A stretch of 64,000 nucleotides of DNA from Chloroflexota bacterium (GTDB taxonomy: Bacteria > Chloroflexota > Anaerolineae > Anaerolineales > VGOW01). Each line of letters opens with the position of its first letter. Position 1 is the first letter of the stretch. Positions 4,041-17,716 of the stretch are shown here, piece after piece. The stretch is taken from assembly GCA_016213135.1 (NCBI GenBank), contig JACRBQ010000035.1, positions 1-64,000 on the forward strand. The letters run 5' to 3'. The notes beneath the pieces are model-generated. The model worked only from the letters and a program-made list of their open reading frames with translations, was not told the DNA's origin and did no database searches. The position numbers and the translations under genes are program-made.

Positions 4041-5465
4041 CTACGGTATCCATTCCGGCAGGTAGCCGCCGGGGGCCAGTTCCGTTTCGCCGGCACCGCT
4101 GATGTCGATAATCCATACGGTGGGCAGTTCGCTGAGGGCGGCGACGTTGAAGCGCATATACACCAGCCGCGCCGAGTCGGGGCTCCACACAAAGGCGCTG
4201 TGGTTGTCGAAGGGGTCGCTGGTGAGGGCGCGGGCGTCTTGCCCGTCCGCGCGCATGAGCCACAACTGGCGGCCCGGTGTCCACTGGTTCTGCACAAGCT
4301 GCTTGCGGGCAAAGGCCAGCCACTGGCCGTCCGGCGAATACACGGGTGAGGCGTCTTCGACGAGATTGCTGCCGGAGAGGTCGTCGGCCTTGTTGGTGGA
4401 TACGGTGACGCGCAGCAGGTTGCTGTAAAAGCGGTCACTGTTCTCCGGCTCGGCGGTGGGGGTCTGGGGGATGGCGCCCGTGGCGGTGGGCGCGGGAGTG
4501 GGTTCGGGCGGGAACACAATCTCCGGGTAAACGATGAAGTTGCCGTCGGGCGACCACGTGCCCATTTCGCCGGAGGTGTTGGGGATGTAGGTTGCGGTGC
4601 GAGAGGCAAAGTCAAACACGGCAATGGCCTGCAGGGTGGAATCGAGGTAGGCCAGGCGGCCATCGGCGGCGAAGCGCGGGCTGCGGGTGGCATGCGCGGG
4701 GTCTTGCGCCGGGATGGTGAGTTGGCCGCTGGCGGGGTCGAGCACTTGCACTTTGGGGTCGCCGGTCTGGCCGTCGGGCTGCACGGGCGAACGCTCGAAG
4801 GCGAGTTGCGCGCCGTCGGCAGAGAATTGCGGTGCGCTGCACAGGTCAGTGTGGCAGGCCAGCACGGTGGTCGCCGGGCCGCCGTCGCGGCTCGTGCGCC
4901 GCAAGTCCGCGCCGCCATCGGGGCGCAGGGCGGCATACACTATTTGCGTGCCGTCGGGGCTGACGACGAAGTCGTCCACGCCGGCGGCTTCGCTGGTGAG
5001 CTGGGCTGCCGCGCCGCCCTCGGCGGGCACAGCCCACACGTTGGCGATGTCGTCGGTTTTGAGGAGGAAGGCCACGCGAGCCGCGCCGACGGTGAAGCTC
5101 CAACTGCGCCCGAACAGCATGGGAAGGCCGCGACTGGTTTTTCCCCCCAATGCCAGCGACACGGTAACCGTTCCGGGGGGCCACGTGCCATCGGGAGTGA
5201 AGCGCAGTTCGTTCCCCGACCAGCTCACCGCCCCGGCGGATGGCGGCTGGATGCTGAGGCGGCTTTCGACCGAGGCCTGGTCCATCGGGTGATTGAAGCT
5301 GAGGGTGACGGGCGCGCGCGAGGAGGCGCTGTCGCCCTGCGGCGACACGGCCAGCACGCGCGGCAGGCCGAAGAATGCGGCCATGGCGAGGCCGATGAGG
5401 ATTCCGGCAAGGGCCAGCAGAACGAGTTGCGGCGCGGCGGAGGGGCGACGATGGCGGTACATCAT
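4041..5465 (-). CDS. Membrane-anchored protein with Ig-like domain and TolB/PD40 beta-propeller repeats
   Basis: N-terminal TM; repeated SPDGxxIVY / SPDGQWLAFAR motifs. Confidence 0.75.
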   Translation of the reverse strand: MMYRHRRPSAAPQLVLLALAGILIGLAMAAFFGLPRVLAVSPQGDSASSRAPVTLSFNHPMDQASVESRLSIQPPSAGAVSWSGNELRFTPDGTWPPGTVTVSLALGGKTSRGLPMLFGRSWSFTVGAARVAFLLKTDDIANVWAVPAEGGAAAQLTSEAAGVDDFVVSPDGTQIVYAALRPDGGADLRRTSRDGGPATTVLACHTDLCSAPQFSADGAQLAFERSPVQPDGQTGDPKVQVLDPASGQLTIPAQDPAHATRSPRFAADGRLAYLDSTLQAIAVFDFASRTATYIPNTSGEMGTWSPDGNFIVYPEIVFPPEPTPAPTATGAIPQTPTAEPENSDRFYSNLLRVTVSTNKADDLSGSNLVEDASPVYSPDGQWLAFARKQLVQNQWTPGRQLWLMRADGQDARALTSDPFDNHSAFVWSPDSARLVYMRFNVAALSELPTVWIIDISGAGETELAPGGYLPEWIP

Positions 5466-5480
5466 GGGACGGATTATAGT

Positions 5481-6137
5481 TCACGTCGCTACTTCGATGA
5501 ACAGGTTGGCCGCCATGTCTGCGCCCAGCACTTGCTCGCCCACAGGGGTTTTAAGCCGCACCGGGCCATCGAAGGGGGCGCGGTTGAGCAGCGTGATGGG
5601 CGTGCCGGGTGTGAGGCGAATTTCGGCGAGGTACCGGAGCTTGTCCGGGGTGTGTCGGCGAATGCGGCGCAGTATGCCCCGCGTGCCCACCGGAAAGGTG
5701 AGCAGGCTGGCTTCGCTCAACGCGGGCATGCGCCCGTCTTTGGTGGGGATGGGGTCGCCGTGCGGGCAGCGGGCGGGGTAGCCGGCGAGTTCGTCCATGC
5801 GATCTTCAAACTGATCGTTGATGGCTGCCTCGAGGTCGTGCGCGTGCGTGTGCACCTCGTCCCAGCCGAACTTCATGACGGTGACGAGGAAGGCCTCGAG
5901 CAAACGATGGCGGCGGATGGAGCGCAGGGCCTCGCGCTCGCCCTTGGGCGTGAGGCGCACGCCCTTGTAGGGCTGACGGCGCAGGTAGCCCTCGTGCGCC
6001 AGCAGCCGCATCATCTTCACCGCTGCCGGGGGCGACACCTCCAGCCGCGCGGCCACCGCGGTGGTGGTCACCGGTACCTCGGTGGACGATTGCAGGCGAT
6101 AGATTTCCGCAAGATAATCACGCCGGGCATGGCTCAT
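5481..6137 (-). CDS. DtxR/MntR-family metal-dependent regulator
   Basis: LEVSPPAAVKMMRLLAHEGYLRRQPYKGVRLTPKGE...EVHTHAHDLEAAINDQFEDRMDELAGYPARCPHGDPIP; start set at MSHARRDYL. Confidence 0.9.
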   Translation of the reverse strand: MSHARRDYLAEIYRLQSSTEVPVTTTAVAARLEVSPPAAVKMMRLLAHEGYLRRQPYKGVRLTPKGEREALRSIRRHRLLEAFLVTVMKFGWDEVHTHAHDLEAAINDQFEDRMDELAGYPARCPHGDPIPTKDGRMPALSEASLLTFPVGTRGILRRIRRHTPDKLRYLAEIRLTPGTPITLLNRAPFDGPVRLKTPVGEQVLGADMAANLFIEVAT

Positions 6138-6357
6138 GGCCTCGGTGGCTGAGTCGGCGCCCGTCAGTGAGTTGAGGGCGGCGGCCACAGGAGTCGGCTT
6201 CCCGTCCAATCCACACAGCCCTGGGGTTTTACTCTGGTTAATTTCCAAGTTGTCCTCGAGGAAGCCCAAGTTTAACGGGCAAGTCTTGATAATTCTGATA
6301 TTTGTCACTAATATTACCCTAACTATACAACCCTTTCAAGAACTGGAGAAAAGAGGC

Positions 6358-7200
6358 ATGTGGGTATCTTTGCTGTTGACGTTGCGTGAGGGGCTTGAGG
6401 CGGCACTGATTGTGGGCATTGTGTTCGGCTACTTGCGCAAGATTGACGGGTTGCAATACGCGCGCACGGCCTGGGCGGGTGTGTTGAGCGCGGTGCTGTT
6501 GAGCGCGGCGCTGGCCGTGGGTATCATGGCCGTGGGGGCGGAGCTTACGGGCCGCGCCGAGCAGTTGTTCGAGGGCGCGACGATGCTGTTGGCGGTGACC
6601 GTGCTGACGTGGATGATCTTTTGGATGCGGTCACAGGCGCAGCACTTGAAGGCCCGGCTGGAGGGCAAGGTACAAAAGGCAGTGGCTGCCGGAGTGGGCG
6701 GCGCGGCGTGGGGGCTTTTTGCGATGACGTTCATCGCCGTGTTTCGCGAGGGGGTGGAGACGGCGCTGTTGCTCGGGGCGGCGGCCTTCCAAACCAACGG
6801 GATGGACACGTTGATCGGCGCGGTGACCGGCCTGGCCATGGCGGCAGCCATCGGCTATGCGGTGTACGCCTCCACGGCGCGGCTCAACGCGCGGCTGTTT
6901 TTCGACGTGACCAGTTTGCTGCTGCTGGTGTTTGCCGCCGGGCTGTTCATGCACGGTGTGCATGAGTTTCAAGAGGCCGGGCTGCTGCCGGAGATCGTCG
7001 CCGACGTGTGGGACACGAGCGCGCTGATCAGCAAAGAGTCGGTGCCGGGGCAGTTCCTGCGAACGCTCGTCGGCTACACCCCCAAGCCCTCGCTGGTGGA
7101 AGTGCTGGCCTACGTGGGTTACTGGCTCGCCACACTGGGCGCGGTGCGCTGGTGGAACAGCCGGCTGGCGGCCCGCCACGAATTTATTCCTGCGGAGTGA
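6358..7200 (+). CDS. FTR1-family iron permease
   Basis: Two REGxE motifs (REGLEAAL, REGVETAL), multiple TM helices. Confidence 0.9.
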   Translation: MWVSLLLTLREGLEAALIVGIVFGYLRKIDGLQYARTAWAGVLSAVLLSAALAVGIMAVGAELTGRAEQLFEGATMLLAVTVLTWMIFWMRSQAQHLKARLEGKVQKAVAAGVGGAAWGLFAMTFIAVFREGVETALLLGAAAFQTNGMDTLIGAVTGLAMAAAIGYAVYASTARLNARLFFDVTSLLLLVFAAGLFMHGVHEFQEAGLLPEIVADVWDTSALISKESVPGQFLRTLVGYTPKPSLVEVLAYVGYWLATLGAVRWWNSRLAARHEFIPAE

Positions 7201-7204
7201 TTTC

Positions 7205-7762
7205 ATGGAACTCTTCGACGCCATCCACACCCGCCTGTCTATCGGCAAAGTAAAACCCGACCCCGTGCCGCGCGAACTGATTGAGAAGATGCTGAGCGCG
7301 GCGGTGCAGGCGCCGAACCATCACAAAGTGCGCCCGTGGCGATTTGTGGTGCTCACGGGCCAGGCCCGCGAACGGCTCGGCGACGTGTTCGCCGCCTCCT
7401 TCCGCAAGCGCCACCCGGAGGCCATGGAGGAGGCCGTGACGGTGGCGCGGGGCAAGGCGCTGCGCTCACCGGTGCTGATTGTGGTGGGCGTGGACAAGCC
7501 CGCCACCGAAAAAGTGGTCGAACTTGAGAACGTGTGCGCGGCGGCGGCAGCGGCGCAAAACATGCTGCTGGCGGCGCACGGGCTGGGGCTGGCAGCCAAA
7601 TGGAACACGGGCGATAATGCGACTGACGATTTGATCAAGGCGTTTTTCGGCCTCGCGCCGGATCAGCACTTGCTGGGATTTATCCACATTGGCTATCCGA
7701 TGGTCAGGCCGCAAGCTGTGGAGAGGCCTTCGTTTGAAGACCGGACGGTGTGGATGGAGTGA
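7205..7762 (+). CDS. Nitroreductase family protein
   Basis: IHTRLSIGKVKPDPVPRELIEKMLSAAVQAPNHHKVRPWRFVVL. Confidence 0.9.
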   Translation: MELFDAIHTRLSIGKVKPDPVPRELIEKMLSAAVQAPNHHKVRPWRFVVLTGQARERLGDVFAASFRKRHPEAMEEAVTVARGKALRSPVLIVVGVDKPATEKVVELENVCAAAAAAQNMLLAAHGLGLAAKWNTGDNATDDLIKAFFGLAPDQHLLGFIHIGYPMVRPQAVERPSFEDRTVWME

Positions 7763-7765
7763 GAC

Positions 7766-7985
7766 ACAAGGAAGGAGGTGATGCAACTGCAAAGCGCGCG
7801 CGCAATTAAAAAGTGAGAGGGCCATAGGCTTGCGCCTAGACCCTCCCAGTGGTGCGAGAGGCATGGCGGGAACCAAGAACCTCTCGACGGAAACAATCAT
7901 AACATATTCACAAAATCGTTGCCCTGAAACCCCTGAAGGTCTGTGAGACCACCGGGGTCTGGCAACGCAACTTAGGAGAAGAGCT
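7766..7985 (+). promoter_or_regulatory. Structured 5' leader of the iron ABC operon: short ORF MQLQSARAIKK (7781-7816) plus several hairpins
   Basis: AAGGAGG preceding atgcaactgcaaagcgcgcgcgcaattaaaaagtga; inverted repeats agggccataggc/gcctagaccct, cgagagg/cctctcg, CGTTGCC...GGCAACG. Confidence 0.45.
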
Positions 7986-7988
7986 AAC

Positions 7989-9080
7989 ATGTTTCGCAAA
8001 CTTCACCGGGCGGTGGTCGCATTTACGGTCGTCGCCTTGATCATTACTGCGTGCGGAACGGCGGCGACGCCGACCGCTCAACCGACGGCAGCGCTCGAAC
8101 CGGCGACGGTGGCGCCCACTCTCGCGCCGACCGAAGCGCCGGTGACCGGCGCGCTCGTCGTGTATTCCGGCCGCAAAGAGCCGCTCATTCAGCCGGTGCT
8201 GGATGCGTTCAAAGCGAAGTACCCGGACGTGGAGATTGTGCTGAAGAGCGGGAGCAACAGTGAGCTGGCTAATGCTCTGATCGAAGAAAAGGCCAACCCG
8301 CAAGGCGACGTGTTCATCACAACAGAAGTGTTCACCGTGCAGGCCCTTTACGCCGAAGGTGTGTTCGAGAATTACGTTTCGCCCAACGCGGCGGATATCC
8401 CGGCGCAGTATCGGCAAGTAGACGGCGGCTGGACAGGCGTGACGGCGCGGGCGCGGGTGATCATGTACAACACGACTCTGGTCAAACCGGAAGACGCGCC
8501 GCAGTCCATCTTCGATCTCACGGATCCAAAGTGGCAAGGGCAGGTGGCCGCCGCTGGGAGCGCGAATGGCTCGATGCAAGCGCAGGTCGCAGTACTGCGC
8601 GAACTGGTGGGCGAGGGGGCGACCGAAGACTGGCTGGCCGGTTTGGTCGCTAACGAGGTGACGTTCTTCGACAGCCACACGGACGTGCGGAAAGCCGTGG
8701 GCGCGGGCGAGTTCAAGATCGGGTTGGTCAATCACTATTACTACTATCTGCAACAGGCCGAAGGCAGTCCGGTAAGTGTCGTTTTCCCGGATCAGGGCGA
8801 CGGGCAGATCGGGGTGATTGTCAACGCGACGGCGGCGGGCATTGTCAAGGGCGGGCGCAATCCGGAGGCGGCAAAGGCGCTGGTGGACTTTCTGCTTTCC
8901 GGGGAGGGCCAAAAGCTGTTCGCCGAGTTGAATTACGAATATCCGCTGGTTCCGGGCGTTGCGCTGCACCCCGACGTGCAGTCGCTCGACGGCTTGCGCT
9001 TGGCGGATGTAAATCTTGCCGAGGCGACGGTTGATCTGGATGCGACGTTTGATTTGATGGAGAAGGTTGGACTGCCGTAG
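7989..9080 (+). CDS. Fe(3+) ABC transporter substrate-binding lipoprotein (FbpA/FutA-like)
   Basis: Lipobox LIITACG; LVVYSGRKEPLIQPVLDAFKAKYPDVEIVLKSGSNSELANALIEE. Confidence 0.9.
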   Translation: MFRKLHRAVVAFTVVALIITACGTAATPTAQPTAALEPATVAPTLAPTEAPVTGALVVYSGRKEPLIQPVLDAFKAKYPDVEIVLKSGSNSELANALIEEKANPQGDVFITTEVFTVQALYAEGVFENYVSPNAADIPAQYRQVDGGWTGVTARARVIMYNTTLVKPEDAPQSIFDLTDPKWQGQVAAAGSANGSMQAQVAVLRELVGEGATEDWLAGLVANEVTFFDSHTDVRKAVGAGEFKIGLVNHYYYYLQQAEGSPVSVVFPDQGDGQIGVIVNATAAGIVKGGRNPEAAKALVDFLLSGEGQKLFAELNYEYPLVPGVALHPDVQSLDGLRLADVNLAEATVDLDATFDLMEKVGLP

Positions 9081-9086
9081 TTTGTG

Positions 9087-9150
9087 ACAAGGTGACATGG
9101 TGACAAGGTGGCAGTGAGTCACCTTGTCACCCCTTCACCGTGTCACCTGT
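9087..9150. repeat. 8-bp-period inverted array (ACAAGGTG then TCACCTTG-like units)
   Basis: acaaggtg acatggtg acaaggtg gcagtgag tcaccttg tcacccct tcaccgtg tcacctgt. Confidence 0.9.
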
Positions 9151-9158
9151 CGTTCCCC

Positions 9159-10820
9159 ATGGACTCTGCCGCGCAACTCTCCGCGCCTTCTCGCTGGCGC
9201 TTTTATTCCAACATCGGCAAACGACCGATGCCGTTGCCGCTATTGCTGGCCGCTTTAGCGGTTGCGGCTTTCATTGCCACACCGCTCGTTTATATTGCCT
9301 ATCGCGGCGCGGCGGGCGGCGCGGACGTGTGGCTGAGGTTGGCGCAGACTCGCTTGGCGGGGTTGATGTTCAACACGCTGTCGCTCGCCGTTGCAGTGAC
9401 GGGCGGCACGCTGGTCATTGGCGTGACTCTGGCCTGGCTGGTCGAGCGAACCGATCTGCCGGGGCGCACGCTGTGGCGGTGGCTGTTGGCAATGCCGCTT
9501 TCGATTCCGGCGTTCATCGGCGCGATGGTGCACGTGGCGCTGTGGCGGCCGCGCGGCGGCATGGTGCCGCAGCTGCTTTCGGGCTGGCTTGGCTATCCGG
9601 TGGATACGCCGAGTCCGTTTGGTTTTATCGGCGCGGCGGCGATGCTGACGCTGTTCATGTATCCGTATGTTTTTTTGCTCAGCGCGGCGGCATTTCGGAC
9701 ACTGCACGCTTCGCTGGAAGAGGCGGCGCGGTCGCTGGGGCGCGGGCCGTGGGGCGCGTTGTGGCACGTGATCTTGCCGGCGCTCAAGCCGGGCCTCGGC
9801 GCAGGCGCATTGCTCGTCGCGTTGGATATTCTGGCCGAATACGGCACGGTTGTGCTGCTGCGCTATCAAACGTTCAGCTCGGCGATCTTTTTGCAGTTGA
9901 GCGGGCGGTATGATCGCTCGGCGGCGGCGGTCCTGAGCGCGGTGCTGATCGTGCTGGGTGGCGCGCTGCTGTGGGGCGAGGTCAAATTTCAGGGGCAGGC
10001 GCGTTTTTATCAAATGACGGGCAGTTGGCGGCCCGCGCCGCCGACTCCGCTGGGGCGCTGGACTCCGCTGGCGCTGGCCCTGGTGTTGCTCGTCGTCGGC
10101 ATGAGCCTGGTGGTGCCTGTCGTCGTGCTTGTGGGGTGGACACTTCAGGGCTGGCTCGATACGTCGTACGCGGCGTCGGTGTGGCGGTTCTCGGCGCAGG
10201 GCGTATGGGGTTATGCCTTCAATAGCGTGTGGAGCGCGGGGCTGGCCGCCGTTCTTGCCGTAGCGCTTTCTCTGCCGGTTGCTTATCTTTCGGCGCGTTA
10301 TCCACGCCGCACATCGCAAGCCCTGGCGCGGCTGTGCCAGGTGGGGTATGCCCTGCCGGGTGTGGTGATTGCGCTGAGCTTGATCCTGCTCGTCAATCGG
10401 GCACTGCCATTCTTGTATACGACTCCGCTCATCGTCGTGCTGGCGTACGTGCTGCGCCACATGCCGCAGGCGGTGCGGAGCAGTGAGGCGGCGCTGGCGC
10501 AAGTCGCGCCAACGATGGAGGAGGCGGCGCGCAGTTTGGGCCGCCCGCCTCTGCGCGCGTTCGTCAATGTCACTTTGCCGCTCATCCTGCCGGGGCTGTT
10601 CGCGGGGGGCGCGTTGGTGTTTCTGACTTCGCTCAAGGAATTGCCCGCCACGCTGTTGTTGCGTCCGGCAGGCTTCGACACCCTTTCGGTGCGGGTATGG
10701 ATCACGGCCAGCGAAGGCGTGTATACTCAGGCCGCGCCGGCGGCATTATTGCTCATTTTGTGCGCGGCGGCGCCGCTGTATTTTCTGTTGAAGCGCGAAA
10801 TGAGAAAACGTGATGCGTGA
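9159..10820 (+). CDS. Iron ABC transporter permease (FbpB-like, duplicated permease halves)
   Basis: Two BPD-transporter cores EEAARSLGRGPWGALWHVILPALKPGL and EEAARSLGRPPLRAFVNVTLPLILPGL. Confidence 0.92.
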   Translation: MDSAAQLSAPSRWRFYSNIGKRPMPLPLLLAALAVAAFIATPLVYIAYRGAAGGADVWLRLAQTRLAGLMFNTLSLAVAVTGGTLVIGVTLAWLVERTDLPGRTLWRWLLAMPLSIPAFIGAMVHVALWRPRGGMVPQLLSGWLGYPVDTPSPFGFIGAAAMLTLFMYPYVFLLSAAAFRTLHASLEEAARSLGRGPWGALWHVILPALKPGLGAGALLVALDILAEYGTVVLLRYQTFSSAIFLQLSGRYDRSAAAVLSAVLIVLGGALLWGEVKFQGQARFYQMTGSWRPAPPTPLGRWTPLALALVLLVVGMSLVVPVVVLVGWTLQGWLDTSYAASVWRFSAQGVWGYAFNSVWSAGLAAVLAVALSLPVAYLSARYPRRTSQALARLCQVGYALPGVVIALSLILLVNRALPFLYTTPLIVVLAYVLRHMPQAVRSSEAALAQVAPTMEEAARSLGRPPLRAFVNVTLPLILPGLFAGGALVFLTSLKELPATLLLRPAGFDTLSVRVWITASEGVYTQAAPAALLLILCAAAPLYFLLKREMRKRDA

Positions 10821-10857
10821 TGCGGGACAACCTTTCACGGATCACGCATCACGGATT
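10809..10857. repeat. 7-bp-period inverted array (CGTGATG / ACGGATC-ACGCATC)
   Basis: cgtgatg cgtgatg cgggaca acctttc acggatc acgcatc acggatt. Confidence 0.85.
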
Positions 10858-10870
10858 AGGCTGTTGGTTA

Positions 10871-11917
10871 ATGAATGCTTTAGAATTAGAAGGCGTCACC
10901 AAACAATACGCGCCAGGCACACCCCCCGCCGTCGCCGATGTGTCGCTGTCGGTGGCGAAAGGTGAAATTCTTGCGCTCATCGGCCCCAGCGGGTGCGGCA
11001 AAACGTCTACACTGCGGTTGATCGCCGGATTTGAGCGGCCGGATTCGGGAACGGTGGTGATCGGTGGACGGGTTGCGGCCAATGGCCGGGCCTGGATTCC
11101 GCCGGAGCGGCGCGGCGTCGGAATGGTCTTTCAAGATTACGCGCTGTTCCCGCATCTCACGGTTGCCGAAAACACCGGCTTTGGTCTTGATGAACTGAGC
11201 CGGGACAAGCGCCAGCCGGAAGTGGATCACTTGTTGCAGTTGGTGGGGCTGGAAAAATTCGGCCGGCGGTATCCGCACGAGTTGTCGGGCGGGGAGCGGC
11301 AGAGGGTGGCTCTGGCGCGCGCGCTCGCGCCCAAGCCGGTGGTGGTTCTGCTCGATGAGCCTTTCAGTAATTTGGACACCGACCGCCGCGCGGAGATGCG
11401 CGAGCAGGTGCGCGCAATTCTAACAATGTTAAGCGCGACGGCGATCTTCGTCACGCACGATCACGAAGAGGCGCTGTTCATGGGCGACCGTGTGGCCGTG
11501 CTGAATAACGGACGGCTGGAACAAATCGGCGCGCCGGAAAGTATTTTTCATTCGCCGGCTTCGCATTTCGTGGCCGAGTTCATGGGCCACACCGATTTTC
11601 TGCCGGGCCGCGTCGTCTCCAATGGAATCGAAATGGAGATCGGTTTGTTGCCTCAGCGCGTCGATCTGCCGGAAGGCACAGCGGTGGAGATCGCCTTCCG
11701 TGCCGACGACGTGTCGCTCACGCCCGATCGCACCGCGTCGGCGCGGGTGCTGGCCCGTCACTTCAAAGGCGCGGTTAATCTCTATCGTGTGCGTTTGCCG
11801 TCCGGCCAATTAATTCACAGCCTGCAACCGCACACGCTGCAGATGGCACCTGGAACAGCGGTGCGGGTGTGGGCCGCGCCGGGGCATGCGCTGGCGTGTT
11901 ATCCGGTTGATCAATGA
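10871..11917 (+). CDS. Iron ABC transporter ATP-binding protein (FbpC-like)
   Basis: GPSGCGKTSTLRLIAGFERPDSG, LSGGERQRVALARALAPKP, LLDEPFSNLD. Confidence 0.93.
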   Translation: MNALELEGVTKQYAPGTPPAVADVSLSVAKGEILALIGPSGCGKTSTLRLIAGFERPDSGTVVIGGRVAANGRAWIPPERRGVGMVFQDYALFPHLTVAENTGFGLDELSRDKRQPEVDHLLQLVGLEKFGRRYPHELSGGERQRVALARALAPKPVVVLLDEPFSNLDTDRRAEMREQVRAILTMLSATAIFVTHDHEEALFMGDRVAVLNNGRLEQIGAPESIFHSPASHFVAEFMGHTDFLPGRVVSNGIEMEIGLLPQRVDLPEGTAVEIAFRADDVSLTPDRTASARVLARHFKGAVNLYRVRLPSGQLIHSLQPHTLQMAPGTAVRVWAAPGHALACYPVDQ

Positions 11918-12933
11918 AACTCGACGTCGCCATCTCCCCTTTCTCTCTCTCCGAAGTCTCCGCGCTCGCGCGCCGCATCGAGGCGCTGGGCGCGGATGGA
12001 CTGTTCACCACCGAAACCCAACACGATCCATTTCTGCCGCTGGCCCTTGCCGCCGGGCACACGACGCGGCTTGAACTGGGCACGGCAGTGGCCATTGCCT
12101 TTGCCCGCAGCCCGATGACCGTGGCCCACACGGCGTGGGATTTGGCCGCGCACTCCGGCGGGCGGTTTCTGCTCGGCCTCGGCACGCAGGTCAAACCGCA
12201 CATCGAGCGGCGTTTTGGCATGGCGTGGCCCGAGTCGCCCGTGGGCCAACTGCGCGAGTTCATCGCCGCCGTGCGGGCGGTGTGGCAGTCGTGGCAAACG
12301 GGCGAGCGGCTCAACTTCCGGGGCGAGCGTTACAAGCTCACGCTCATGACGCCGTTTTTCAATCCCGGCCCCATCGAGCATCCGCGCATCCCCATTTACA
12401 TTGCCGGGGTCAACGCCCCGCTCATCAAACTGGCCGGTGAAACCGCCGACGGATTTCACGTTCACCCCTACCACACCCGGCGCTATCTGGCCGAAGTGGT
12501 TGCGCCGAACATCGAGGCCGGGGCAACCAAAGCCGGGCGCGCCCGCGCCGATGTGACCCTGGCTGGGACGGCCTTTGTGGCCGTGGGCGACGGCGAGGCG
12601 GCCCGCGCCCCCATGCGCGAGGTGATGCGCTCGCAAATTGCTTTTTACGCCTCCACGCCCACCTATCGCCCGGTAATGGCGCTGCACGGTTGGGAAGCGC
12701 AGGCCGGGCAGCTTTCGGCGCTGGCGGCCAAAGGACAGTGGGGCGAGATGCCCGCTGTGCTTACCGACGACATGCTGGCCGAATTTTTGGTCGAAGGCTC
12801 GTGGGCCGACCTCGGCGGCAAACTGCGCGCCCGATACGACGGTTTGCTGGATCGGGTGGCGCTGTATCTGCCGTTTTCGCCGGGTGAAGATGATGAGAGG
12901 TGGGGGAGGGTGGCGAGGGCGATTCGAGGGTGA
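11914..12933 (+). CDS. LLM-class (F420-dependent type) oxidoreductase
   Basis: GADGLFTTETQHDPF..., RFLLGLGTQVKPHIERRFG, IPIYIAGVNAPLIKLAGETADGFHVHP. Confidence 0.88.
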   Translation: MKLDVAISPFSLSEVSALARRIEALGADGLFTTETQHDPFLPLALAAGHTTRLELGTAVAIAFARSPMTVAHTAWDLAAHSGGRFLLGLGTQVKPHIERRFGMAWPESPVGQLREFIAAVRAVWQSWQTGERLNFRGERYKLTLMTPFFNPGPIEHPRIPIYIAGVNAPLIKLAGETADGFHVHPYHTRRYLAEVVAPNIEAGATKAGRARADVTLAGTAFVAVGDGEAARAPMREVMRSQIAFYASTPTYRPVMALHGWEAQAGQLSALAAKGQWGEMPAVLTDDMLAEFLVEGSWADLGGKLRARYDGLLDRVALYLPFSPGEDDERWGRVARAIRG

Positions 12934-13135
12934 CTTGCTCAACGGATCGCCTTTCAGCGGATTGAAAACGAAAAAGCGGATGGGAGCGCAGTCGCCATCC
13001 CCTTTCGCGGAGCGGCTTAATCATCCGTTGGAAGTTTATTCTCGACTTTGCGTTCTTGTGCCTTCTTCCATATAATCCTGCACACGGGAGCGGCTTGCCG
13101 CCGCTGTCTGATGAGTGTGGTTAGCAGGAGGACGT

Positions 13136-16018
13136 ATGAGCAACGATCCACAACAGCCGGGAACGGAGATTTTGAAACGGATCGTCGAGAAGCTCAAGGT
13201 ACAAGAATTCCTATTTGCGCTCGGACTTGTCGTTGCCTTGGCAGTCTTCGGCGGATTTATCCTGCCCGATTACATCCCCTTGATCTATTTGGCGACAGGC
13301 GTGGCGTTGATCTTGTATACCGTCACGGTGGTGACGACGGCCTACCGCAAAGTGCGCGACGCGAAAGAGGGCGCGACGCAAGCCCGGCGCGAGCCGTCAA
13401 CCGTCATCGTCACCGTGTTGCCGCCTGCGCCGTCTGTTGAGCCGGTACGCCCGGCGCTGTCCGAATTCGAGCAGTTGACGATGTATCTGGATCGGGTCAG
13501 AAATACCAACAACATCTTGCGGCTGGTCGGGATCAGCGCCGAGGCCAGTGACCCGCAGAAATCGAGCGCGGAAGCGCGCACCCCGACCTCTTTATCGGAC
13601 GTATTCATCTCACTGCGAATTGATCGTTATCGCGGCGAACCCGAAGAGCAGGCGCAGGGCAAACCGGATCGTGAACACCAGCAAGAGATGGCGCGGTTAT
13701 TGGAGCGGGAACGCAAGCAATTGACGGCCATCGAAGCGTTGAGCGATCCCAAAGTCTTGCGCTGTGTGATGTTGGGGCAGCCGGGATCGGGCAAATCGTC
13801 GGTGCTGCGTTACGCGGCGTATCGCCTGGCCGAGTCGTTCCTTTCCCCCGAACGACTGAAAGAGACGATGCCCGAATGGCAGGCCGGAGAAATGCTGTCC
13901 GTGCTGGCGCCGTTGGCGCTTTTGGCCGAGTCGCTGCCGGCGCGCGCCCAGGGCGGGAAACTGGACGATCACGTGGTTGCGTTTGTCCAGGCGCAAGTGG
14001 AATGGTGCGCCGAAATGAACGGCTTTGCCCGGCGCGTGTGGCGCGAGGCGCGCGAGCGCGGCGTGCTGTTTTTGTTCGACGGCCTGGACGAAGTGGCGCC
14101 GGAAAAACGCGCCGTCGTCAAAGAGGCGATAGACGAGTTTCTTTCGGCGCGGGGCAAATGTCGCGCCGTCGTCACCTGCCGCACGTACAGTTACGGCGAC
14201 GACAAGTGGCGGCTGGAAGGCTGGCCGGCTTACAACATCGAGCCGCTTTCGCGCGGCGAACAAGAATCGTTCATACAGAAGTGGTACCAAACGCTGATCC
14301 AAAACGACGCCCCCTCGCGCCCGCTGTACGAGAAGAAAGCACAGTCGCTCGAGGGCGCGATTTTCTCCGGCGACGCCCGGCAACTGCATCAAATCTCGGG
14401 CACCCCCCTGCTGTTGACGCTTATCGCCATCGTGCACACGCATCAAGAAGAACTGCCCCGCTCGCGCATTTTGATTTACCGGGAGTGCGTCAACCTTCTG
14501 CTTCTGCGCTGGCAAAAGCGGCGGCAGGTCGGCGACGCGCTGAAGTCCATCGCCGAACGGATGAAAGATGCCGCGCCCACGGCGAGCGGGCTGGCCGACA
14601 AAGTGCTGGAGGGGCTGGCCGAGGTGGCGTATCAAGCCCGCGACCGGGACGCGATGAAGCATGGCGACTCCATGTTGATAGACCTGTATCTCCTGCGGCA
14701 AGTGATGATGCGCTATCTGCCCGAAGCCGCCCTGTCCGTCTTTGAAGATTATTGCTTGAATGCCAATGGCTTGCTCCTGGCCATTGGCTCGCGCCGCCTG
14801 CGGGATCGCCCGGCCCACGAAGAGCCGGTGATGTGCTTCGCCTTCCCGCATCTCTCTTTTGAAGAATACCTAGCCTCGCAATACATCGCCACGCTGGACA
14901 ACCCGGAAGAGGCGCTGGCACAGCGCAACGCGGCCAGCGACCGCTGGTTTTACGCCGGGCTTTTCCTGGGCGAGCAGTACGCGCTCGTCACGCCCAAACG
15001 CGCCAGGAATATGCTGGAGATGTTTCACCAACTACTCAAGGACGGCGCAGCTTGGCGCAACGTTTGGCTGGCGGGCGTGTTGTGGCCGCTGTTCTGCGCG
15101 GAATTTCCCGAGAGGCGCGGCGACCCTGCCGAGTTGGAGGGGCGCGTCCGTGAGCGCCTTACAACTTTGTGCGCGACGGGGCAACTGTTGCCGCACGAAC
15201 GCGCCGACGCCGGGCGCGTGCTGAGCGAGATGGGCGACCCCCGTGACCTCGAAGAACTCGTCGCCATTCCCAAAGGCCCGTTCATTATGGGCAGCAAGGA
15301 AGAAGGCCCCTGGCTCGACGAGCGCCCTCAACACGAAGTCGTCATTCCCGGCGATTACAGGATTGGAAAATACCCGGTGACGGTGAAATTGTGGAAGCGG
15401 TTTGTGGATGAGGCGAAATACGATCCGCGCGTTCCGGATTCGCTCAAAGGCTACGACAACCATCCCGCGCACGACGTTTCCTGGCACGACGCTTGCAACT
15501 TCTGCGAATGGCTGACGGACGTATGGCGAAAGGAAGGGAAGATCGGCGAGAATGAAGAGGCGCGCTTGCCCACGGAAGCGGAGTGGGAGCGCGCGGCGCG
15601 CGACACAGACGGGCGCGAATGGCCTTGGGGCAACACATTTGAGGAGAATCGCGCGAACACATCTGAAAGCGGAATCAGGCGCACCACCGCTGTTGGCATA
15701 TTTCCTGCCAAGGAAGTACCGACAAAATGTTTGGATATGATTGGCAATGTGTGGGAGTGGACTATCAGTTTGGGGGCCGAGTATCAGGATAAGAGTTACG
15801 CGAAGCGCGTGCGAGAGTTCAAATATCCGTATGATCCAGGAGATGAGCGAGAAGATATGCGGGCCGCTGATAACTTTTCCCGCGTGGTGCGCGGCGGCTC
15901 GGGCGGCAGTCCCGGGTTCGCGCGCTGTGCCTGCCGCGGCGGCTACCTCCCGTTCTATCGGGGCGGCAACGTCGGTTTTCGGGTGGTGGTCTCCCCTATC
16001 TCGCTTTTGAATCCCTGA
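13136..16018 (+). CDS. DGR target: two-TM NACHT NTPase with C-terminal formylglycine-generating-enzyme/SUMF1-like (CLec fold) domain
   Basis: Walker A GQPGSGKSS, NACHT Walker B VLFLFDGLDEVAPEK; FGE-like IPKGPFIMGSKEEGPWLDERPQHEV...LPTEAEWERAARDTDGREWPWGN...DMIGNVWEWT...VVRGGS...GFRVV. Confidence 0.93.
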   Translation: MSNDPQQPGTEILKRIVEKLKVQEFLFALGLVVALAVFGGFILPDYIPLIYLATGVALILYTVTVVTTAYRKVRDAKEGATQARREPSTVIVTVLPPAPSVEPVRPALSEFEQLTMYLDRVRNTNNILRLVGISAEASDPQKSSAEARTPTSLSDVFISLRIDRYRGEPEEQAQGKPDREHQQEMARLLERERKQLTAIEALSDPKVLRCVMLGQPGSGKSSVLRYAAYRLAESFLSPERLKETMPEWQAGEMLSVLAPLALLAESLPARAQGGKLDDHVVAFVQAQVEWCAEMNGFARRVWREARERGVLFLFDGLDEVAPEKRAVVKEAIDEFLSARGKCRAVVTCRTYSYGDDKWRLEGWPAYNIEPLSRGEQESFIQKWYQTLIQNDAPSRPLYEKKAQSLEGAIFSGDARQLHQISGTPLLLTLIAIVHTHQEELPRSRILIYRECVNLLLLRWQKRRQVGDALKSIAERMKDAAPTASGLADKVLEGLAEVAYQARDRDAMKHGDSMLIDLYLLRQVMMRYLPEAALSVFEDYCLNANGLLLAIGSRRLRDRPAHEEPVMCFAFPHLSFEEYLASQYIATLDNPEEALAQRNAASDRWFYAGLFLGEQYALVTPKRARNMLEMFHQLLKDGAAWRNVWLAGVLWPLFCAEFPERRGDPAELEGRVRERLTTLCATGQLLPHERADAGRVLSEMGDPRDLEELVAIPKGPFIMGSKEEGPWLDERPQHEVVIPGDYRIGKYPVTVKLWKRFVDEAKYDPRVPDSLKGYDNHPAHDVSWHDACNFCEWLTDVWRKEGKIGENEEARLPTEAEWERAARDTDGREWPWGNTFEENRANTSESGIRRTTAVGIFPAKEVPTKCLDMIGNVWEWTISLGAEYQDKSYAKRVREFKYPYDPGDEREDMRAADNFSRVVRGGSGGSPGFARCACRGGYLPFYRGGNVGFRVVVSPISLLNP
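15880..16004 (+). repeat. DGR variable repeat (VR), 3' end of the NACHT-FGE gene
   Basis: Aligns to 17589-17716 with 24 substitutions, all at template adenines, and one 3-nt gap. Confidence 0.97.
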
Positions 16019-16041
16019 TCCCTGAAAACTCTGATCCATGT

Positions 16042-16082
16042 GGGGGTGGGGGTCTGGGGGCGGGGGTTTCCCCCGCCCCCAG
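16042..16082 (+). promoter_or_regulatory. G-quadruplex motif overlapping a perfect 13-bp hairpin downstream of the VR
   Basis: GGGGGTGGGGGTCTGGGGGCGGGGG (16042-16066); CTGGGGGCGGGGG-TTT-CCCCCGCCCCCAG (16054-16082). Confidence 0.85.
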
Positions 16083-16109
16083 CCGGGGCAAGAAGCGCGG
16101 CGGCGCACC

Positions 16110-17198
16110 ATGAAACCTTACACGAATCTCTACCCCAAAATATGCGCCTGGGAAAACTTGGAGCTGGCCTATTACAAGGCGCGGCGGGGCAAGCGCGGCC
16201 TGGCGCCGGCGGCAAGTTTCGAGCGCAAGTTGGAAGACAATTTGGTTGCTTTGCAAGACGCACTGCTCTCGCAAACCTACGCGCCGGGAAAATATCACAG
16301 TTTTTACATCCACGATCCCAAGAAGCGTTTGATCTCCGCCGCGCCGTTCCGGGATCGAGTGGTTCATCACGCACTGTGCAACATCATCGAGCCGATCTTC
16401 GAGCGCAGTTTCATTGACGACTCTTACGCTAACCGCGTGGGCCAAGGCACGCACCGCGCGCTGGATCGCTGTCAGCAATTCTCGCGCCGCTATCGCTACG
16501 CTTTGCAACTCGATGTCGTGCAGTATTTTCCGGGCATTGACCACGCAATTCTGCGCGAGACGTTGGCGCGAAGGATTGGCGATGAAGCGGCTCTCAGACT
16601 GTGTGAGGTAATTATCGAGAGCGGGCGCGGCGTGCTGGCGGAAGAATACAACATGGTCTATTTTGACGGCGACGACCCTTCGACGGGCTCAGGGCAGGGT
16701 CTGCTGGCCGTCAACCGCCCGCGCGGCTTGCCTATCGGCAACCTGACCTCGCAGTTTTGGGCAAACGTCTATCTCAACTCGTTTGATCACTTTGTCAAGC
16801 GCGAACTCAAATGCAAAGCGTATCTGCGTTACGTGGACGATTTCATCCTGTTTGCCGACGACAAGCAAACATTATGGGCATGGCGCAAGGAGACTGTGGA
16901 TTACCTTGCCCGCTTGCGTTTGACGCTTCACATTGAGCGCGTTCACCCGCGCCCCGTAACTGAAGGCGTGATGTTTCTCGGCTTCAACGTCTTTCCGACT
17001 CATCGCCTGCTCAAGGCGAAGAAGGCGATCTCGTTCCGAAGAAAGCTCAAGGCAATGCGCCGCCAATTGGCAGAAGGCGAGATCGGGTTAGGGATGCAGC
17101 ACGCCTCGGTCAGAGGCTGGGTCAACCACGTACGCTATGGGGATACGTGGGGCCTGCGCCGCGCAATTCTGGGCGCGAATCCGATTACGTGGAATTGA
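16110..17198 (+). CDS. Diversity-generating-retroelement reverse transcriptase
   Basis: RGLPIGNLTSQFWANVYLNSFDHFVKRELKCKAYLRYVDDFILFADDK: SQ motif typical of DGR RTs plus YVDD catalytic motif. Confidence 0.96.
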   Translation: MKPYTNLYPKICAWENLELAYYKARRGKRGLAPAASFERKLEDNLVALQDALLSQTYAPGKYHSFYIHDPKKRLISAAPFRDRVVHHALCNIIEPIFERSFIDDSYANRVGQGTHRALDRCQQFSRRYRYALQLDVVQYFPGIDHAILRETLARRIGDEAALRLCEVIIESGRGVLAEEYNMVYFDGDDPSTGSGQGLLAVNRPRGLPIGNLTSQFWANVYLNSFDHFVKRELKCKAYLRYVDDFILFADDKQTLWAWRKETVDYLARLRLTLHIERVHPRPVTEGVMFLGFNVFPTHRLLKAKKAISFRRKLKAMRRQLAEGEIGLGMQHASVRGWVNHVRYGDTWGLRRAILGANPITWN

Positions 17199-17588: not shown

Positions 17589-17716
17589 CCGCGTGGTGCG
17601 CGGCGGCTCGTTCAACAACAATCACAGGAACGCGCGCTGTGCCTGCCGCAACGACAACCACCCGAACAATCGAAACGACAACATCGGTTTTCGGGTGGTG
17701 GTCTCCCATAACTCGC
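17589..17716 (+). repeat. DGR template repeat (TR), adenine-rich AAY codons
   Basis: ccgcgtggtgcgcggcggctcgttcaacaacaatcacaggaacgcgcgctgtgcctgccgcaacgacaaccacccgaacaatcgaaacgacaacatcggttttcgggtggtggtctcccataactcgc. Confidence 0.97.

Follow-up and report, generated by a model that had tools for sequence, protein, structure and literature searches.

A G-rich hairpin with a predicted third strand follows hypermutation targets of diversity-generating retroelements in a Chloroflexota bacterium and its relatives

We found that the gene segment rewritten by a diversity-generating retroelement (DGR) in a Chloroflexota bacterium is followed directly by a G-rich DNA hairpin, whose neighboring G-tract appears suited to wrap back as a third strand, and that the same layout recurs, with changed but matching letters, behind targets of this kind across related bacteria. 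Thus, the element is probably a homing signal made of triple-stranded DNA, although both its folding and its mechanism are inferred. We began from an original prediction that a G-quadruplex motif (G5-T-G5-TCT-G5-C-G5) overlaps a perfect 13-bp hairpin, located 38 nt after the end of the DGR variable repeat (VR) and 27 nt before the start of the reverse transcriptase (RT) gene, and that these structures are mutually exclusive states of a homing site, which could expose single-stranded DNA or control RT expression. The sequence observation was exact. The interpretation was supported only in part: the evidence supports a homing structure downstream of the VR, but does not support a quadruplex as the conserved alternative state, nor control of RT expression as the conserved role.

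We first examined the element within the window (the entire 64-kb stretch of DNA analyzed), the features of which are collected in Table 1. The inverted repeat is 100% complementary with a 3-nt loop, and is the only copy in the window even if 3 mismatches are allowed (0 expected in shuffled sequence); it is also the only occurrence of GGGGGCGGGGG-N2-8-CCCCCGCCCCC in the 3.8-Mb genome. The DGR itself is sound, with an RT, an accessory protein, a target with a C-type-lectin-like domain, and a VR that differs from the template repeat (TR) at 22 positions in the longest ungapped part of the repeat, all of which are TR adenines. The last base of the VR is identical to that of the TR. Two features were not part of the original prediction: the left G-tract and the 5' arm of the hairpin form a mirror repeat, and the spacer between VR and hairpin carries YTCTG-like repeats; both recur at other DGR targets. 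A comparison with Rfam returned only tRNAs.

Table 1. Features of the DGR locus in the window (all on the + strand)
Coordinates	Feature	Basis
13115..16018	DGR target gene: NACHT (STAND NTPase) protein with C-terminal FGE-sulfatase / C-type-lectin-like domain	Open reading frame; Pfam FGE-sulfatase 7.6e-45, NACHT 4.9e-7
15880..16004	Variable repeat (VR)	Repeat of 17589-17716 (3 nt shorter near its 5' end) with mismatches at TR adenines
16013..16033	YTCTG-like array, three units: CCCTG 16013-16017, CCCTG 16020-16024, CTCTG 16029-16033	Spacing 7 and 9; family-wide array has spacing 7/8/9
16042..16052	G-tract 1, GGGGGTGGGGG, proposed third strand of the triplex	Mirror of 16056-16066; 10 of 11 triplets standard, center T.C-G
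16053..16055	TCT between G-tract 1 and the purine arm	Sequence
16054..16066	5' arm of the hairpin; proposed purine strand of the triplex is 16056-16066, GGGGGCGGGGG	Inverted repeat with 16070-16082, 13 bp
16067..16069	Hairpin loop TTT	Sequence
16070..16082	3' arm of the hairpin; proposed pyrimidine strand of the triplex is 16070-16080, CCCCCGCCCCC, followed by AG at 16081-16082	Inverted repeat with 16054-16066, 13 bp
16110..17198	DGR reverse transcriptase	RVT_1 5e-16; relatives at 50-75% identity
17202..17546	Accessory variability determinant (bAvd-like)	Pfam bAvd 3.9e-17
17589..17716	Template repeat (TR)	No triplex motif after it

To find out if the element is conserved, we carried out RT-seeded searches, which yielded about 170 loci, and searched these for TR/VR pairs, defined by mismatches at TR adenines only. 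The first pass gave 105 non-redundant VRs and the second gave 139 (88 from Anaerolineae, 28 from other Chloroflexota classes and 23 other hits); flanks sharing a 28-mer were counted once. A similar RT-seeded scan of viral contigs gave no hit. We found that a GC-rich hairpin follows VRs but not TRs: the median score of the best perfect hairpin was 21 in the 120 nt after the 105 VRs, compared to 13 after TRs, 10 at VR+200-320 and 0 in shuffles. The letters at the base of the stem vary and match (CT/AG, GT/AC, TT/AA, GCA/TGC, CCAGA/TCTGG and others), although complementarity was the selection rule in this case, and thus the comparison with TR flanks and shuffles is the real control. Among the 77 hairpins in the set of 139 in which the G-rich arm comes first, loops are 3 nt in 50 and GRNA in none, unlike phage DGRs, and the median start is +69. 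The remaining 62 of 139 VRs have no G-first hairpin by our criteria, and several of these have C-first hairpins with no third strand; thus, the element is not essential to every DGR.

In 58 of 61 G-first hairpins of the first set, a G4+ tract lies within 14 nt upstream of the stem, and in 73 of 77 of the larger set the upstream tract is the mirror image of the 5' arm, interruptions included. Plain G-runs are uninformative as to direction, but interrupted ones are not: GGGGGAGAG-ttt-GAGAGGGGG (locus L078; L numbers denote fetched loci), GGGGGAAGGGG-ttt-GGGGAAGGGGG (L117), GAGGGGG-tgca-GGGGGAG (L147), GGGGGTGGG-tgt-GGGAGGGGG (L131, with T facing A) and AAAGGGG-cgt-GGGGAAA (L160) are all mirror images. 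Over the 73 loci, duplex G faces G in 429 of 430 positions, A faces A in 25, T in 7 and G in 1 (A or T in 32 of 33), and C faces T in 2 and C in 1, which is the code of a purine-motif triple helix. When third strands were permuted among loci, coincident non-G positions fell from 35 to 16.8±3.0 (maximum 25 in 300 permutations) and code-conforming positions fell from 32 to 10.3±2.6; in this test the axis was chosen on G:G matches only, and the null went through the same choice. Similarly, the mirror score was 397.5 compared to 322.8±6.6 when permuted, while the score for a direct repeat, in which the C arm would pair instead with the left tract, was 374 compared to 351±6.6. We rejected this alternative pairing since it fits much less well than the mirror; moreover, across 249 genomes a mirror GA pattern occurs in 28 and the direct one in 6, although many of those mirror copies are dispersed repeats outside DGRs.

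We then asked if the flanks satisfy the published ITxF rule for class-I intrastrand triplexes (stems of 6-15 nt, loops of 1-6 nt, AAT/GGC/TAT triplets, at most one mismatch in stems of 7 or more; PMC4666352). The rule is satisfied on the sense strand by 44 of 105 VR flanks, compared to 1 of 105 on the antisense strand, 0 of 105 TR flanks, 0 of 101 regions at VR+160-320 and 0 of 315 shuffles. The copy in the window, which is the only class-I motif in its 64 kb, conforms with 11-nt stems, loops TCT and TTT, and one mismatch in which T faces C-G; T is, as far as is known, the best tolerated third-strand base opposite a C-G inversion in this motif. The four G-runs originally taken for a quadruplex are the two interrupted purine strands of this predicted triplex. 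In nearly 1 Mb of fetched loci, both strands considered, 61 motifs lie in VR flanks and 4 elsewhere, three of which resemble undetected VR flanks. However, class-I motifs are not exclusive to DGRs: some genomes, including those of Anaerolineae, carry dispersed copies that are apparently unrelated to DGRs (such as GGGGAGTACGAGGGGTATCCCCTC; about 203, 35, 16 and 13 copies in the genomes we label G062, G022, G016 and G154, respectively), and other genomes show many copies of the reversed, class-II-like order. Thus, the motif alone does not prove a DGR target everywhere.

The third strand and the hairpin arm also changed together in evolution (INDEPENDENCE). On a tree of 117 RTs, the two kinds of arm interruption arose about 10 and 7 times, and the upstream tract changed in the same way in 5.4 of 6 and 4.5 of 6 independent pairs, never in the opposite way, although the independent pairs are few (median P 0.06 and 0.125). 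The nearest RT to that in the window (75% identical) belongs to a second complete DGR of the same genome (contig C17, positions 4500-13500, locus L070; also L003), which has its own CLec-type target, its own array, and an element with different letters but the same logic, GGGGATGGGG-ttt-GGGGAAGGGG-ctttg-CCCCTTCCCC. Two more distant RT relatives lie on contigs C105 and C120 of this genome.

We also examined which genes follow the element at other loci. VRs with both triplex motif and array are followed by RT (18), by Avd (10), or by neither within 500 nt (20) (VRs were not de-duplicated in this count). Moreover, a motif-first pattern search of 396 genomes that ignored RT gave 30 fetched loci (L229-L258), 22 of which have a CLec-type target domain ending shortly upstream on the same strand, most with no RT in the fetched 2-3 kb; a reversed control pattern found nothing. 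These are probably remote DGR targets, an assignment that rests on motif and domain rather than on a matching TR. Thus, the element follows targets irrespective of the next gene, which argues for a role of the DNA at the target and against regulation of RT or Avd expression as the conserved role.

Between the VR end and the hairpin lies an array of [CT][TC]CTG units, with 415 units in 80 nt of the 105 flanks compared to 58±7 in shuffles, and 3.95 units per flank compared to 0.40 after TRs; the spacing is 7 (152), 8 (70) or 9 nt (31). At least three units occur in 77 of 88 Anaerolineae VRs, but in only 4 of 28 from other Chloroflexota classes. A locus with the full Anaerolineae-style array and triplex hairpin (L226) was found in a genome outside Chloroflexota (G922, from a search of the class of the Thiothrix genome), due either to horizontal transfer or to a misbinned contig. 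We considered that the array might pair with the RNA after the TR, but found no enrichment of CAGRR after TRs; likewise, TRAP-like binding of the array by an Avd pentamer remains speculation, since the unit number is not fixed at five (4 to 7 are all common). In addition, an A3+T4+ tract occurs within 160 nt in 32 of 105 VR flanks (including those of L086, L078, L017 and L007), typically just past the hairpin, but in 0 of 105 TR flanks; the window lacks this tract after its hairpin. A protein site is a guess for both features, and an unstructured loading site is a further possibility for the array.

We infer with fair confidence that the feature is the cis-acting target-site element of the DGR, in which the hairpin already described downstream of VRs has gained a third strand in this Chloroflexota lineage, such that the sense strand can fold as a class-I purine-motif intrastrand triplex (third strand - purine - pyrimidine) preceded by the YTCTG array. 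The sequence comparisons themselves establish the position after VRs and absence after TRs, the sense-strand bias, the mirror coupling that obeys the G.GC / A.AT / T.AT code, and the presence at targets without a neighboring RT. In contrast, it is inference that the element folds in the cell when the sense strand is single (as lagging-strand template or in supercoiled DNA), that it stalls the polymerase copying the sense strand towards the VR, that it has any effect on homing, and, most tentatively, that it so keeps the VR sense strand open for the antisense cDNA and leaves a nascent 3' end beside it. This view is based on evidence that BPP-1 needs its target hairpin for efficient homing and forms it as DNA (PMC3240598), that loss of the stem-loop severely impairs editing, and that in E. 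coli the same DGR prefers targets whose sense strand, the complement of the cDNA, is the lagging-strand template (PMC12875486). A structure on that strand just 3' of the VR would be met by the polymerase before it enters the VR, and triplex-forming sequences are known replication impediments (PMC7613824). The strand bias (44 to 1) fits this idea, but GC skew of the window gave no usable replication direction.

We considered three other explanations, each of which we think unlikely. The one that survives best is that only the hairpin or cruciform matters, as in BPP-1, and that the upstream G-tract serves another purpose, such as a protein site or a DNA:RNA hybrid quadruplex formed from two sense-strand G-runs during transcription. 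Indeed, BPP-1 and the other phage DGR hairpins sampled lack the tract, and two G5-6 runs on the non-template strand would suit a hybrid quadruplex. However, neither function explains why interruptions in the tract mirror those in the arm with A or T opposite A, or why the tract stays about 3-4 nt from the purine arm. The quadruplex/hairpin switch is slightly less likely. The window has a perfect four-run motif, the second DGR of the genome also has four G4 runs, and ViennaRNA gives an RNA quadruplex of -58.8 compared to -31.0 kcal/mol for the RNA hairpin, although quadruplex energies are uncertain; thus, a quadruplex may still form in this particular copy. In contrast, only 11 of 105 VR flanks have a quadruplex motif ((G3+N1-7)x4), nearly all with interrupted triplex arms, while typical copies have two G5-6 runs, or an arrangement such as that of L078, which cannot easily make a three-tetrad intramolecular quadruplex yet retain mirror-matched interruptions that a quadruplex does not require; the occurrence after VRs without RT also argues against the switch. 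Least likely is a generic dispersed triplex repeat or transcription terminator at gene ends, since, although intrastrand triplex repeats are common in bacterial intergenic DNA (PMC4666352) and dispersed in some Anaerolineae genomes, the element is single copy in this genome, 61 of 65 motifs in fetched loci are in VR flanks and none follows the 105 TRs, copies differ in sequence between loci and are tied to the array, and no GC stem followed at once by a T-run was found at 15900-16300.

A hairpin whose third strand co-evolves by the purine-triplex code points to a non-B structure as the signal, and bears on how DGR cDNA enters its target and what the target hairpin does. It would also give a function to a class of natural DNA triplexes that so far has none, and provide a motif-first way to find DGR targets far from any RT. 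In a bolder reading, which we consider about as likely as not, Chloroflexota DGRs mark their targets with a bipartite DNA signal, a phased YTCTG array and a strand-specific intramolecular triple helix; this would be a natural bacterial DNA triplex with an assignable function, directing targeted hypermutation, and would suggest that DGR hairpins work as polymerase roadblocks on the lagging-strand template. In the literature searched, which includes few subscription papers such that novelty is not certain, no paper mentioned DGRs together with G-quadruplex or mirror repeat, and two mentioned them with triplex (a hankyphage paper and a group II intron review, one occurrence each).

Among known systems, the closest is the target hairpin/cruciform of BPP-1-type DGRs (Guo et al. 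2011, PMC3240598), which is likewise a GC-rich inverted repeat just downstream of the VR, with the G-rich arm first on the sense strand and a stem sequence free to vary. The element in the window differs in its 13-bp stem (7-10 bp in the BPP-1 type), its 3-nt TTT loop (4-nt GRNA), its distance of 49 nt from the VR (4-34), and the addition of a mirror G-tract and a YTCTG array. Class-I purine-motif intrastrand triplex motifs (Holder et al. 2015, PMC4666352, and earlier work of Hoyne and Maher cited there) share the order of strands, the stem and loop lengths and the triplets, and are likewise intergenic and G/C-rich, but those were dispersed repeats without known function, and the E. coli one is class II, whereas here the motif is tied to DGR targets, on one strand, with locus-specific sequences. 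Finally, group IIC introns that target terminator-like stem-loops (as discussed in PMC3240598) are related retroelements that also recognize a DNA stem-loop at the target, but no third strand has been reported for them, and the outcome is insertion of an intron rather than mutagenic copying of a VR.
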